This document shows, piece after piece, positions 11,647 to 24,547 of a stretch of DNA of 24,734 nt. Origin of the DNA: a virus; IMG/VR virus record IMGVR_UViG_3300017692_000007, positions 1 to 24,734 of that record. One strand, written 5' to 3'. Position numbers and translations under genes: made by a program. The notes beneath the pieces were generated by a model, which was not told the origin of the DNA, searched no databases, and was given only the letters and a program-made list of their open reading frames with translations. The first letter of the stretch is position 1. Every line of letters starts with the position of its first letter.

Positions 11647-12021
11647 ATGAGCGAGTTCGAGAACAACCAAGTCAGGGTCATCAAGGCGTTCCGCGATCGG
11701 GACGGCAACTCGGTGCCCCGGGACACGCAGCCGCTGCTGGCCGCCTTCCTGGTCTACGGTGAGGTGAAGGACAACACCTTCCTCCACGCCGTGCTGGCCA
11801 GGGACTTCGACATGCTGTCCTCCGTTCCCATGAGCGGCGCACAGCGCGAGAAGTTCCAGACGGTGGTCGCCTGCGTAAGGGAGCTCGCCCCCGCACGCGC
11901 CTGGGGCAGCCACGAGCGCGTGTACGAATACCAGAGCTACGTGCGCTCGGGGGCGATGGCCCGAGAGCGCGCCTCCTACGAGGAGCGCGAGCGCACCAAG
12001 TCTTCCGCCACCCCCGCGTAG
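11647..12021 (+). CDS. Hypothetical protein, last gene of the early/middle block
   Basis: This 124-residue protein starts at an ATG preceded by AAGGGGTG. It is mostly helical (QPLLAAFLVYGEVKDNTFLH; QREKFQTVVACVRELAP), with a highly charged Arg/Glu-rich tail. No motif is recognised. It is followed by a strong GC hairpin and then by a 250-base gap with repeats, so it probably ends a transcription unit. Confidence 0.7.
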   Translation: MSEFENNQVRVIKAFRDRDGNSVPRDTQPLLAAFLVYGEVKDNTFLHAVLARDFDMLSSVPMSGAQREKFQTVVACVRELAPARAWGSHERVYEYQSYVRSGAMARERASYEERERTKSSATPA

Positions 12022-12156: not shown

Positions 12157-12188
12157 GACGAACCCGTTAAATTAACCCAGGAACTGGG
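12157..12188 (+). repeat. Intergenic repeat copy 1 with GAA hairpin
   Basis: A 22-base unit at 12157-12178 contains CCCGTTAAATTAACCC, with the near-palindrome GTTAA-A-TTAAC. It is followed by a hairpin with stem CCCAG/CTGGG and loop GAA (12176-12188). The unit recurs 46 bases downstream with one difference. The AT-rich core stands out in GC-rich DNA, and the site lies about 100 bases before a large gene, so a promoter or operator is likely. Confidence 0.75.
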
Positions 12189-12202
12189 CAGGTTGACGGG
12201 GC

Positions 12203-12233
12203 GACGAGCCCGTTAAATTAACCCTGAAAGGGT
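12203..12233 (+). repeat. Intergenic repeat copy 2 with GAA hairpin
   Basis: The second 22-base unit (12203-12224) is identical to the first except for G in place of A near its start. It leads into a hairpin of ACCCT/AGGGT with loop GAA (12221-12233). The stem sequence differs from copy 1 but pairing and loop are kept. The string AATTAACCCT followed by AAAGGG superficially resembles the T3 RNA polymerase promoter with four bases missing. The start codon of the next gene is 44 bases downstream. Confidence 0.75.
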
Positions 12234-12276
12234 CGGCGAGACCGGCCCCGACATCCAGAGAAAGAGTGTAAGACAC

Positions 12277-12906
12277 ATGACCGACATCACCGATATCAAG
12301 CAGGTCTACATCATCGAGGGCCGTCAGTTCGAGACGAAGGCCGAGGCGCAGGACTTCCTCCGTCGCCCCAAGAAGGTCGACGCGTTCAAGACGTTCATCG
12401 CGGCCGGCGACAACCAGGACAAGATCATCGACTGGCTGCTCGACAACCAGGAGAGCGTCGAGAGCGCGTTCGAGGCGGGCGTCATCAAGCGCGTGTCGAA
12501 GTCCGAGACCAAGCAGCTCGAGGTCGCGTTCGCCGAGATCGCGGCGGCGGCAGCCGAGGGTCGCGCGATCGACACCAAGAAGGCGCGCATCGTCCTCGAC
12601 AACATCGAGACCGCTCGCGACTCGTTCCGCTGGCCGACCGTCAAGCGCATGAACGACGAGGAGAAGGCCGCCGAGGCGCTGCGTCAGCTGACCGAGGTCG
12701 CCGAGGGCAACGAGCGCCTGGCTCAGTTCGTCGTCGAGAACAAGGACCGCGTCCTCGAGTCGTACGCGGCCGGCAAGCCGAAGCGCGAGGTCTCGCCGCA
12801 GGCCGCGGCTGGCCTGCAGGAGTACCGCGAGCGCATGGCCCGCGAGAAAGCGGAGCGCGAGGCGAAGGCCGCCGAGGGCGCTGACGCGACCACCGAGGCG
12901 GAGTAA
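12277..12906 (+). CDS. Helical acidic protein, first gene after the repeat region
   Basis: This 209-residue protein begins with a strand-turn-helix, QVYIIEGRQFETKAEAQDFL, a pattern common at the start of small phage proteins. It then becomes a long series of charged helices (SKSETKQLEVAFAEIAAAAAEG; NDEEKAAEALRQLTEVAEG) ending in an Ala/Glu-rich tail (REAKAAEGADATTEAE). This suggests an extended coiled-coil or scaffold-like protein; no catalytic motif is visible. The ribosome binding site is a weak AGAGAAAGAG. Being first after the repeated promoter-like elements, it is probably strongly expressed. A scaffolding or nucleoid-binding role is possible but unsupported. Confidence 0.75.
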   Translation: MTDITDIKQVYIIEGRQFETKAEAQDFLRRPKKVDAFKTFIAAGDNQDKIIDWLLDNQESVESAFEAGVIKRVSKSETKQLEVAFAEIAAAAAEGRAIDTKKARIVLDNIETARDSFRWPTVKRMNDEEKAAEALRQLTEVAEGNERLAQFVVENKDRVLESYAAGKPKREVSPQAAAGLQEYRERMAREKAEREAKAAEGADATTEAE

Positions 12907-13416: not shown

Positions 13417-13971
13417 ATGACCGACTTCCGACTGTACCAACAAGCGGTGTCGCCCGCGCTGGTCGACCTGATCAGCGGGGCGCTGCTCCACGTGCGCATG
13501 AGCCGTGACCCCAACCAGCGCATCGAGCGGAACGGGAACGCCTACATCAACCGCTGGATGCTGGCCCGCAAGGGTCAGGTTCCGCTGTACGACGACCCCG
13601 CCGAGCTGCTGGGCTACGCGGGCATGATCCCGAGCGAGCTCGAGAACCTGTACATGCACGAGTACGCCCGCAGCGACGCGGACGACCCGCACTGCCACCC
13701 GTGGCCGAACGTCACCCTCGTGGTCGACGGCTGGTACCGCGAGAACATGTACGAGGCCGGCACCAACGTGCTGGTCGGCACCGCGACCCGCCTGCCGGGC
13801 GACGTGGTCGTGCGGTCGAGCGGCTCCGTCCACGCCATCGTGGAGACCAGCTCCGACTGCGTCAGCCTGTTCGCCACCCTGCCGAAGGAGAAGGACTGGG
13901 GCTTCCACACGGACGCTGGCTTCGTCCACTCCCGCGACTACTCCCCCAACAACGTGAGGCCGCTGTCGTGA
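13417..13971 (+). CDS. Cupin-fold protein
   Basis: This 184-residue protein shows a cupin-type metal-binding pattern: H81 in MHEYARSD, H92 and H94 in PHCHPW, then VTLVVDGWYRE, a GDVVVRSSGSVH segment (H139) and a late WGFHTDAGFVH. The HxHPW, the GD-V-strand and the final tryptophan-containing strand match a family of small jelly-roll proteins found in phages and bacteria, usually annotated only as cupin. The reaction is unknown; a nonheme-metal oxygenase, a sugar-modifying enzyme or a binding protein are all possible. The ATG follows the preceding stop without a gap, and its stop overlaps the next GTG as GTGA. Confidence 0.7.
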   Translation: MTDFRLYQQAVSPALVDLISGALLHVRMSRDPNQRIERNGNAYINRWMLARKGQVPLYDDPAELLGYAGMIPSELENLYMHEYARSDADDPHCHPWPNVTLVVDGWYRENMYEAGTNVLVGTATRLPGDVVVRSSGSVHAIVETSSDCVSLFATLPKEKDWGFHTDAGFVHSRDYSPNNVRPLS

Positions 13972-14261
13972 GCGAGTACACCGCGCTGCTGGCCAAGATG
14001 AGCGAGCAGGACCGGGAGATCGTCCAGGCGAAGATGGCGCAGGTCCAGCTGACGGCCGCGAGGGACACCAAGAACCGCATGTACGTGGTGGCCGAGATGC
14101 GGGCCGGACCCATGCGCCTCGAGGCCGTGGACTTCGAGGGCAAGGTGACCTTCACCATGTGCTACGACAACGACGTGATGGCTCACATGGGCGAGGAGGC
14201 TGCGAGGCTGTTCAGCACCTTCGTCACCGACACCATGGAGCGACGCCCCAAGGAGGGCTGA
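13968..14261 (+). CDS. Hypothetical protein
   Basis: This encodes 97 residues from a GTG overlapping the cupin stop. An N-terminal helix (LLAKMSEQDREIVQAKMAQVQ) is followed by strands (NRMYVVAEMRAGPMRLEAVDF; KVTFTMCYD) and a C-terminal helix. The fold is likely alpha/beta; no motif identifies it. The stop overlaps the next ATG as TGATG, so it is coupled to the conserved phage protein at 14261. Confidence 0.68.
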   Translation: MSEYTALLAKMSEQDREIVQAKMAQVQLTAARDTKNRMYVVAEMRAGPMRLEAVDFEGKVTFTMCYDNDVMAHMGEEAARLFSTFVTDTMERRPKEG

Positions 14262-15010
14262 TGAACATATTCTACGTGGACCTGGACCCCGCGAAGGCGG
14301 CCCAGGCCCTCCACAACCGACACATCATCAAGATGATCAGCGAGAGCTGCCAGCTGCTGTCCGTCTGGGCTAGCCGCTGGACCCCGATGGACCGGGGCAA
14401 GCTCTCGTTCATGACCGACGAACAGCACGCCGCCATGATGGCCGAGGTCGAGGCGGCGGACTTCGACCCCGAGGTGACCGACGCGATGGCGGAGGTGCCG
14501 CCCGACGTGCCCTGGACCGGCATCTCCCACCAGAACCACCCCGCCGCCCTGTGGCTCAGCGAGGGCCTCGGCAACGTGAGGTGGCTGGTGGAGCACCTCA
14601 AGGCTATGGTCGACGAGTACGACTTCCGCTACCCCGGCAACAAGGACAAGTTCGAGCGCGCGAGGGTCATCGTGCCCGCGATGCGCTACTGGCTGGGCAA
14701 GTTCGTGACGCTCAACCACACCTGCCCGAAGGCCTGCTTCCCGGACAAGTACAAGCACGAGCCCCTGGACCGCGAGAACGTGATGCAGGGCTACCGGGAC
14801 TACTACCTGTCGGAGAAGATCGCCGGCAACGAGTGGGGCAAGCGGGAGCCGCCGAGCTGGGTGATCCGGTACAAGGAACTCTACAAGCCTCCTCCCCCGA
14901 TCGACGTGGGCGACATCTTCGCCGTGCCGTCGAAGCCCAAGGTCGAGCACGCTCTGCCGGTCGCGGAGCCGACTCGGCAGAAGGTCAGCGCGAAGGACAT
15001 CGTGTTCTAA
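14261..15010 (+). CDS. Conserved phage protein with HNRHIIKM motif
   Basis: This 249-residue protein starts MNIFYVDLDPAKAAQALHNR and continues HIIKMISESCQLLSVW, then ISHQNHPAALWLSEGLGNVR and LVEHLKAMVDEYDFRY. This string of conserved pieces (DxDP-A, HxxKM-E-QLLS, NHP-A-W, DEYxxRYG) belongs to a widespread family of phage and large-virus proteins of unknown role. Some annotations label it a pyrimidine-dimer glycosylase, but I cannot see the T4 endonuclease V active site and do not endorse that. Clustered His, Asp and Glu suggest a metal enzyme. The C-terminal tail (residues ~205-249) is Pro-rich and looks disordered. GGAGGG precedes the ATG. Confidence 0.7.
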   Translation: MNIFYVDLDPAKAAQALHNRHIIKMISESCQLLSVWASRWTPMDRGKLSFMTDEQHAAMMAEVEAADFDPEVTDAMAEVPPDVPWTGISHQNHPAALWLSEGLGNVRWLVEHLKAMVDEYDFRYPGNKDKFERARVIVPAMRYWLGKFVTLNHTCPKACFPDKYKHEPLDRENVMQGYRDYYLSEKIAGNEWGKREPPSWVIRYKELYKPPPPIDVGDIFAVPSKPKVEHALPVAEPTRQKVSAKDIVF

Positions 15011-19043: not shown

Positions 19044-19174
19044 CGGAGCGGGAGGCCAAGAGGATGGGTGCCCTGGAGCAGGCGCTCCGGGACATCGCCA
19101 ACGCGGCGCAAAGCGCCAACTGGCAAGTTATCAAGACCATCGCGCAGAGCGCGCTTGAGGAGAACAGAGCATGA
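19040..19174 (+). CDS. Tiny helical protein
   Basis: This encodes 44 residues if it starts at GTG 19040, which overlaps the previous stop, or 36 from ATG 19064, which has GGGAGG eight bases before it. The product is one amphipathic helix, GALEQALRDIANAAQSANWQ and onward. Its stop overlaps the start of the SPFH-like lipoprotein as ATGA, so it may serve to couple translation. The function is unknown. Confidence 0.55.
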   Translation: MTEREAKRMGALEQALRDIANAAQSANWQVIKTIAQSALEENRA

Positions 19175-19953
19175 AGAAGATCATTGCAGCAGCGGCCCTC
19201 GCCCTCGTGTCGGCCTGCTCCAACGTCACGACCGAGGCGAACGAGGAGAAGGTGCTCAACGCCAAGCCCGTGTTCTTCGGCTCCGGCGGCGTCTACGACC
19301 AGCCCGTCAAGGGCTCGGAGTGGGTCGCGTGGTCGACCCAGGCCATCCCGGTCAACATGCAGCCCGAGCAGCACACGTTCGAGCTGAACGACCTGATGAC
19401 CAGCGACGGCGTGCCGCTGGACTTCGACGCGTCCGTCGTGACCCAGGTCACGGACTCGGTCGGCCTGATCAAGCGGTTCGGCACCGGCTGGTACGACAAC
19501 AACCTCCGCACCGAGCTGCTGTCGTACATCCGCGACGCCGTCAAGAAGCACGGCATGAACGAGACGGCGATCACGTCCAGCGCGGCGGCCAGCATCGACG
19601 CCGAGGTCTCGCGCCGCATCGAGGACTACCTCGCCCGCACCAAGTTCCCGGTGCGCCTCGTGCGCTTCACGATCGGCCGGGCCAACCCGCCGGACAGCGT
19701 GAAGAACCAGCGCATCGCGACGGCGGCGCAGCAGCAGCGCGTGCTGACGCTGAAGTCGGCGGTGGTCGCGGAGGAGCAGCGCGCGCTCTCCGAGGCCAAG
19801 CGCGCCAAGGCCGACCAGGCCTACAAGGAGGGCCTCGGGCTGTCGAGCGACCAGTACATGGAGAAGCTCAAGCTCGACACGCTCGGCCAGGTCTGCGGCA
19901 ACAAGAACTGCACGTTCGTGCAGCAGGGCACGCCCCTGATCCTGAGCCGCTGA
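19171..19953 (+). CDS. SPFH/prohibitin-like lipoprotein
   Basis: This 260-residue protein has a lipoprotein signal MKKIIAAAALALVSAC with C16 as the lipid site; serine at +2 points to the outer membrane under E. coli rules. Residues ~50-170 match the SPFH (band 7) domain: VPLDFDASVVTQVTDSVGLI, a central helix pair (LLSYIRDAVKKHGM) and a late strand VRLVRFTIGRANPP. A long coiled coil follows (QQQRVLTLKSAVVAEEQRAL), then a two-cysteine tail (CGNKNC). SPFH proteins form large membrane rings that scaffold or protect proteases. Phage versions exist, but their role is poorly known. GAGGAG precedes the ATG. Confidence 0.85.
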   Translation: MKKIIAAAALALVSACSNVTTEANEEKVLNAKPVFFGSGGVYDQPVKGSEWVAWSTQAIPVNMQPEQHTFELNDLMTSDGVPLDFDASVVTQVTDSVGLIKRFGTGWYDNNLRTELLSYIRDAVKKHGMNETAITSSAAASIDAEVSRRIEDYLARTKFPVRLVRFTIGRANPPDSVKNQRIATAAQQQRVLTLKSAVVAEEQRALSEAKRAKADQAYKEGLGLSSDQYMEKLKLDTLGQVCGNKNCTFVQQGTPLILSR

Positions 19954-23797: not shown

Positions 23798-24069
23798 TGG
23801 ACTTCAAGATCGACCACAGGGGCAACCCGCGGCTTCACAGGCTGTACGTACGCTACGCCATCGAGCATTTGAAGCCGATGATGGAGTGCGTCGACGACCT
23901 GGAAGGCCAGAGCCGGGTCAACGCTCTCGTCACTGCGGGTCTGCTCCGGCAGCGCATGCGGGAGCTCGTCCTCGAGGACAGCGCGTACTTCGAGGCCGGC
24001 GCTCTCCTGTTCGCGGGGGCAGACACTACCTCCTACTTCGTTGATGAGAAAGGAAAACCGAGTGGTTAA
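23797..24069 (+). CDS. Hypothetical small protein
   Basis: This 90-residue protein has an ATG overlapping the previous stop, with GGAGGG upstream. It is basic at the N-terminus (KIDHRGNPRLHRLYVRYAIE) and helical through the middle (LVTAGLLRQRMRELVLED). The end (GADTTSYFVDEKGKPSG) overlaps the following gene by eight bases. No family is recognised. Confidence 0.65.
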   Translation: MDFKIDHRGNPRLHRLYVRYAIEHLKPMMECVDDLEGQSRVNALVTAGLLRQRMRELVLEDSAYFEAGALLFAGADTTSYFVDEKGKPSG

Positions 24070-24547
24070 GATCTTCCTGGACTGCGACGGCGTGCTCGCG
24101 GACTTCGACAGGGCCGGCGAGATGACCTTCGGCCGCCCTCCCCGCGAGGCGGAGCGCGTCCTGGGCACTTCGGTGTTCTGGACGACCCTCCAGAACGAGG
24201 GCGGCTTCTACCGGCGCATGCCGCTCATGCCGGACGCGATGGAGCTGTACGAGGGCGTGCGGCACCTGTCGCCGACCATCCTCACCGGCTGTCCCCGAGG
24301 CGACTGGGCGGAGGCGCAGAAGGTGGGCTGGGCGGAGGAGCACTTCCCCGGCGTGCCCATCATCACCTGCCGCAGCGCGGACAAGCGCGACAGCATCGAG
24401 TCTCCGGGCGACGTGCTGATCGACGACTGGCCGCAGTACCGGCACCGCTGGATCGAGCACGGCGGCGTGTTCATCAGCCACTACGACGCGGCCAGCTCGC
24501 TGTCGGCCCTCTGGGCGCACTACCCCGAACTCAAGCGAGGAGAATGA
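24062..24547 (+). CDS. HAD-superfamily 5'-nucleotidase-like protein
   Basis: This encodes 161 residues from GTG 24062, with AAAGGAA upstream. KIFLDCDGVLADFD gives the HAD motif I aspartates (D7 and D9). TILTGCP fits motif II, a basic cluster RSADKRDS motif III and VLIDDWPQYRHRW motif IV with its paired Asp. The set matches the 5'(3')-deoxyribonucleotidase (NT5C) type of small HAD phosphatases, which dephosphorylate dNMPs. That role complements the ribonucleotide reductase in shaping nucleotide pools; the substrate is inferred. The GTG gives the natural start; ATG 24044 and TTG 24041 would extend it. Confidence 0.82.
   Translation: MVKIFLDCDGVLADFDRAGEMTFGRPPREAERVLGTSVFWTTLQNEGGFYRRMPLMPDAMELYEGVRHLSPTILTGCPRGDWAEAQKVGWAEEHFPGVPIITCRSADKRDSIESPGDVLIDDWPQYRHRWIEHGGVFISHYDAASSLSALWAHYPELKRGE

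Follow-up and report, generated by a model that had tools for sequence, protein, structure and literature searches.

The window, the whole 24,734 bp IMG/VR virus fragment analysed here (GC 0.66), carries two near-identical repeats that are very likely promoters in tandem, read by a single-subunit (T7-type) RNA polymerase (RNAP) that the phage encodes, a role that we infer from their sequence and placement. The element shared by the two repeats appears, with equally good confidence, to be a member of a new sequence family of T7-type RNAP promoters. The original prediction that a new phage promoter class might be present is well supported, since relatives carry many copies of the element, on the coding strand and at the heads of gene blocks, and a T7-type RNAP co-occurs with them.

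A tandem element precedes a gene block in the window

The two 22-nt copies of the repeat are located at 12157-12178 and 12203-12224, spaced by 46 bp and differing at a single base (A/G at 12162/12208). When the 16-mer motif CCCGTTAAATTAACCC was searched for in the window at up to three mismatches, only these two copies were found, with 0.03 matches expected by chance. As previously described, the gene following the pair starts a new block; 255 nt separate it from the gene ending at 12021 (Table 1). No sigma-70-like promoter or terminator was found at the repeat pair. The tandem pair is also present at the orthologous place in two relatives, G029 (48 bp spacing) and G057 (47 bp spacing). The 209-aa protein encoded by the first gene of the downstream block has a weak match to DUF7853; no match was found in PHROG, and a fold search with its predicted structure returned no match.

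Also downstream of the pair, the window encodes a cysteine-dioxygenase-like protein (13417-13971), a pyrimidine-dimer glycosylase domain (14159-15010) and an SPFH/Band 7 protein (19171-19953). A match to a homing-endonuclease PHROG is located at 1735-2250, between the exonuclease and primase-helicase genes.

Table 1 Features of the repeat pair and flanking genes in the window
Feature	Position	Strand	Basis
Last gene of upstream block	11647-12021	+	ORF list
Promoter copy 1 (predicted)	12160-12179	+	Exact 16-mer; extended consensus [AG]A[AC]CCCGTTAAATTAACCC[TA], here GAACCCGTTAAATTAACCCA
Transcription start, copy 1 (predicted)	12174-12175	+	A12/A13 of motif
5′-leader hairpin 1 (predicted), CCCAG-GAA-CTGGG	12176-12188	+	Fold; population-level enrichment
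Promoter copy 2 (predicted)	12206-12225	+	Exact 16-mer, here GAGCCCGTTAAATTAACCCT; 46 bp downstream of copy 1
Transcription start, copy 2 (predicted)	12220-12221	+	As for copy 1
5′-leader hairpin 2 (predicted), ACCCT-GAA-AGGGT	12221-12233	+	Sequence; hairpin also found at the orthologous place of G057
Stronger competing stem, GGGTCGG/CCGGCCC	12230-12248	+	Fold, -12.7 kcal/mol
First gene of downstream block, 209 aa	12277-12906	+	Two sequence repeats; mostly helical model

The motif is dispersed along the coding strand of related phages

When 2.9 million viral contigs were scanned for exact matches, CCCGTTAAATTAACCC was found in at least 119 IMG/VR stretches, compared with three for the reversed control, confirming that further copies exist in relatives. 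The motif-bearing loci span 33% to 67% GC and, among the IMG/VR stretches listed, two copies 80-160 bp apart are frequent. Eighteen motif-bearing genomes or fragments, the window included, were read whole or nearly so; these contained 1-7 dispersed copies per genome at 0-1 mismatch and almost none at 2-3 mismatches, and nearly all copies were on one strand, which is the coding strand, the exception being one 2-mismatch match on the other strand in G011. Despite an ORF coverage of 94.5% under a generous ORF call, 64 of 80 motif sites fell outside ORFs, and most of the 80 sites were located 30-160 nt upstream of a gene. Homologs of the 209-aa gene were present in 36 loci, and in all 35 that were evaluable the motif was located 42-329 nt upstream (within 143 nt in 34), a figure that is partly circular as most of these loci were fetched by the motif or for carrying it (except L154 and L155, which were fetched by primase).

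A sequence logo of 105 non-redundant sites gave the consensus [AG]A[AC]CCCGTTAAATTAACCC[TA], with an A at -2 in 103 sites and nothing strongly conserved after motif position 17. The element is bipartite, [AG]A[AC]-CCCGTT-NNN-TTAA followed by CCC or rarely TGA/AGA, and in some genomes one centre variant, such as AAC or GAA, prevails at most sites. The T3 promoter consensus continues with CACTAAAGGG through the start region, after AATTAACCCT. This full consensus was considered as a candidate and rejected, as CACTAAAGGG does not follow AATTAACCCT here, and the likeness to T3 noted earlier through AATTAACCCT is probably coincidental given the lack of conservation where the T3 start region would fall.

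The motif core is nearly palindromic, like the site of a protein dimer, which counts against the promoter reading. The operator reading, also raised earlier and here taken as a phage regulator that binds the palindrome GTTAAATTAAC as a dimer, draws on this 11-bp core and on the frequent pairing of copies, but we consider it very unlikely because the sites point one way, in the direction of the genes, the flanks are asymmetric and conserved, and the centre variants GTTGAATTAAC and GTTAGATTAAC break the symmetry.

Among isolate phages, a short-query BLAST search found no copy of the full 16-mer, and a near-DNA search of the phage collection returned short or weak matches only. Bacterial genome contigs gave 22 motif matches, approximately the number expected by chance; PF00940 was encoded by only two of 16 checked bacterial genomes with a match, and a single match contig, L268 (74 kb), is a phage of the motif-bearing clade.

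The motif co-occurs with a T7-type RNA polymerase

A PF00940 single-subunit RNAP is encoded in 34 of 35 motif-bearing records, and the sole record lacking it also lacks the near-invariant A at -2. A converse test, guarding against circularity, used only the RNAP protein to fetch loci, and 50 of the resulting records were scanned for the motif. At up to one mismatch, the motif was present in 32 of 41 records with an RNAP identity of at least 52% and in none of nine below 47% (hypergeometric p about 2e-5; reversed control 0/50), and in all 32 positive records it was on the same strand as the RNAP gene. Of the nine motif-free records with a close RNAP, four carry coordinated variants of the motif, namely CCCGTTAAATTAATGA or -AAGA variants in G083, G087 and G092, and (G/C)CTGTTNNNTTAACCC-like sites at orthologous places in G089; the remaining five are 9-29 kb fragments. 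The element thus appears to change along with the RNAP lineage, a pattern of co-inheritance and not proof of contact. The specificity loop of the RNAP is broadly conserved in the clade; in one case, G089, where the left box is GCT, it reads STNY as opposed to STGY in most members.

No RNAP gene was found in the window fragment itself, which counts against the promoter reading. Two contigs identical to the window over 20.8 kb (G014) and 13.8 kb (G036) encode a T7-type RNAP (742 aa) with all the T7 catalytic residues, and the phage itself very probably carries a polymerase of its own, which the original prediction had proposed to look for; G014 also contains two further motif copies. The equivalents of T7 D537, K631, Y639 and D812 are conserved in all aligned members of this RNAP family. 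The arrangement of sites was followed in G057, a relative of 76.7 kb (GC 0.63, RNAP 71%) with six motif sites, which are located before the RNAP block, after the RNAP gene (at the replication block), as a tandem pair upstream of the homolog of the 209-aa gene, before the block of a MuF gene, and after the gene of a MuF-RNAP fusion, preceding apparent head and tail genes. The window pair is the orthologue of the G057 tandem pair. No cultured member of the motif-bearing clade was found in the collection searched, the RNAP of the closest isolate being 36% identical.

The T7-type RNAP gene is apparently split or interrupted in G003, G006, G007, G008, G029 and G032 (PF00940 matches), as if by an intron or an inserted gene.

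Proposed start site and initiation

The T7-type RNAP would read a double-stranded, directional element of approximately 20 bp, [AG]A[AC]CCCGTT-N3-TTAA-CCC. Past the invariant TTAA the element has a variable 3′ end (CCC, TGA or AGA), and Shine-Dalgarno-like sequences are located 16-24 nt past the motif in several relatives, both of which point to a start in or just after the motif. Our best guess is that RNA starts at A12/A13 of the motif, near the 3′ end of the element at an A of TTAA, which would give transcripts beginning 5′-(A)ACCC. T7-type enzymes favour GGG starts, and such an A-first, CCC-rich start is unusual for a T7-type promoter, which counts against the promoter reading. In the window, the pair would turn on the gene block headed by the 209-aa gene at 12277.

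Stem-loops follow the motif at a minority of sites

Both GAA-loop hairpins previously described after the repeats are present (Table 1). The covariation claimed for them holds in part: the stems are offset by one base from each other relative to the motif, and in register a single compensatory pair remains (A-U versus U-A). At the site orthologous to hairpin 1, CCCTG-TTCA-CAGGG is found in G057 and CCCTT-GAA-AAGGG in G029. Hairpin 2 differs from the minimum-energy fold of its 33-nt stretch; the stronger stem listed in Table 1 competes with this hairpin. Taken singly, the window hairpin stretches are not significant (z -0.7 and -1.8), significance being reached only as a population. A stem of at least 4 bp with the ACCC/CCC of the motif as its 5′ arm was found at 31 of 147 non-redundant sites, compared with 5.0±2.0 (maximum 12) in shuffled sequences, and folding was more stable in the 50 nt downstream of the motif (mean z -1.30) than in the 50 nt upstream (mean z -0.42). 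The hairpin is missing from most sites, and is therefore not the recognition signal; where present, stems are of 4-8 bp and loops are variable.

The transcript of T7 phi10 starts with a stem-loop (the T7 gene 10 leader), and the hairpins following the motif are probably 5′-terminal mRNA stem-loops of the same kind. The sequence downstream of the element would then be initial transcribed and leader sequence, which folds back on CCC in about a fifth of sites, and the small stem-loop would probably serve to protect the mRNA 5′ end or to help in promoter escape.

Two other explanations also draw on the hairpins. In the first, the repeats would be RNA-level signals, acting within long read-through transcripts as processing sites or leader elements, which would suit the leader position, the hairpins and the restriction to a single strand; this is highly unlikely, as the AT-rich 16-mer is invariant yet unstructured (no fold), the motif co-occurs with an RNAP lineage, and the element is replaced wholesale in sister lineages. 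In the second, put forward earlier by analogy with phage N4, a virion-delivered RNAP (here one fused to MuF) would recognise a hairpin extruded from the DNA, its stem 5 bp and its loop 3 nt long. The hairpins of the window match this geometry and phages of the group have a second RNAP-like protein, MuF-fused and possibly virion-linked, but N4 promoters require conserved loop and stem bases (PMC4496689), whereas no loop or stem base is conserved across the hairpins after the motif. The inverted repeats of N4 promoters also fall within -17 to +1 of a mapped start. With the 16-mer near-invariant and the hairpin optional and widely varying in stem and loop, an N4-type promoter is extremely unlikely.

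A putative second polymerase fused to a MuF domain

Motif-bearing genomes also encode a protein of approximately 1,550 aa in which a MuF domain (PF04233, E 1.8e-13) at the N terminus is fused to a divergent T7-type RNAP domain (PF00940) scoring 25.7-30 bits, which is weak but above threshold. Examples include L205:6059-10708 (-), L221:5588-10234 (+) and their homologs. The sequences QDASSSGAQ, KAQNMVTFYG and HDAF are invariant in the alignment of these proteins and by inspection would correspond to motifs A, B and C of the T7 family. Searches of PDB with the MuF-RNAP gave no significant RNAP match, so the assignment as an RNAP rests on Pfam and motif inspection. On this basis the protein is a candidate head-delivered RNAP outside the N4-like phages. 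A literature search, in which coverage of subscription journals was limited, found nothing on the motif or on a MuF-RNAP fusion.

Alternatively, the element may serve as promoter for the MuF-fused virion RNAP, either in place of the 742-aa enzyme or in addition to it. Complete-looking genomes encode both enzymes, one site is directly after the MuF-RNAP gene (in many genomes the motif is 5-9 nt past its stop codon), and an extra downstream C-run at many sites could mark a second polymerase. Against this, sites are found at the start of every type of block, that of the head and tail genes included, whereas the precedent virion RNAPs of P23-45 and N4 are reported to be confined to early genes; motif presence also tracks the identity of the non-virion RNAP, though both proteins are co-inherited. 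We therefore regard this alternative as unlikely, and favour the 742-aa T7-type enzyme as the polymerase reading the element.

The C-run was present in 30 of 147 sites, nearly always starting from motif positions 23-27 (shuffles 4.2, maximum 10). It is frequent at the first site in a tandem pair and ahead of the block that contains the RNAP gene, and could be a regulatory or second-polymerase element. Examples of the C-run are found at L200:2041 and at sites in L149 and L141. A possible, though doubtful, extension is that these siphovirus-like phages use two T7-type RNAPs, a head-packaged MuF fusion acting on early promoters marked by the C-run and a soluble one acting on all CCCGTT-N3-TTAA copies. 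Such a scheme, if true, would mean that a single-subunit polymerase is delivered from the head in phages other than the N4-like ones. Thermus phage P23-45 likewise has a virion protein fused to an RNAP, in its case a tail-tape fusion, plus a separate non-virion RNAP, but its virion RNAP is reported to be homologous to cellular RNAPs (PMC10770324), whereas both enzymes of the present phages are T7-type, with a MuF head protein as fusion partner.

Sister lineages carry elements of their own

The nearest isolates by RNAP are the Naomviridae roseophages DSS3_VP1 and PM1 (36% identical), in which gene order is similar and a protein annotated as "minor head protein-like" aligns with the MuF-RNAP. 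The 16-mer motif is absent from DSS3_VP1. Instead, DSS3_VP1 and PM1 (L240/L241, L242/L243) each have about 15 coding-strand copies of ATAGGNNRCGTTAAA-like elements, which apparently are the promoter of these cultured phages. The two elements are alike in being coding-strand repeats that have CGTTAAA in common, with stem-loops often starting from the first base after it, and differ in that the Naomviridae sequence is ATAGGNNRCGTTAAA, with GAGGGG often next. In DSS3_VP1 many predicted stems start at the first base after CGTTAAA, with a modest difference in mean z (-1.31±0.41 versus -0.57±0.37). G043/G044 have a repeated element of their own, AAATACTTGACCCTTATGA, laid out as in the motif-bearing phages, and each lineage seems to have its own element.

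Compared with the T7/T3 promoters, the motif is likewise a directional element of approximately 20 bp that heads gene blocks, with an AT-rich box beside the inferred start, transcript-initial stem-loops, and a T7-family RNAP with all catalytic residues. It differs in sequence, in having no conserved GGG start and in that AATTAACCCT is not followed by the T3 start region, and the phages carrying it are approximately 70-80 kb, siphovirus-like and equipped with a second RNAP.

Through the motif, transcription can be approached at the sequence level in a widespread group of uncultivated water phages of 33-67% GC, and a compact, orthogonal promoter family paired with likely polymerases would be useful as new RNAP/promoter tools. 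Because the dU-DNA roseophages share the layout of promoter and 5′ stem-loop and are in culture, the prediction can be tested directly.

The window also encodes a PF06941 nucleotidase (24041-24547), a member of the family of the PBS1 dTMP phosphatase (PMC12697855), which together with the kinship to the dU-DNA Naomviridae raises the question of T-to-U replacement in the window phage.
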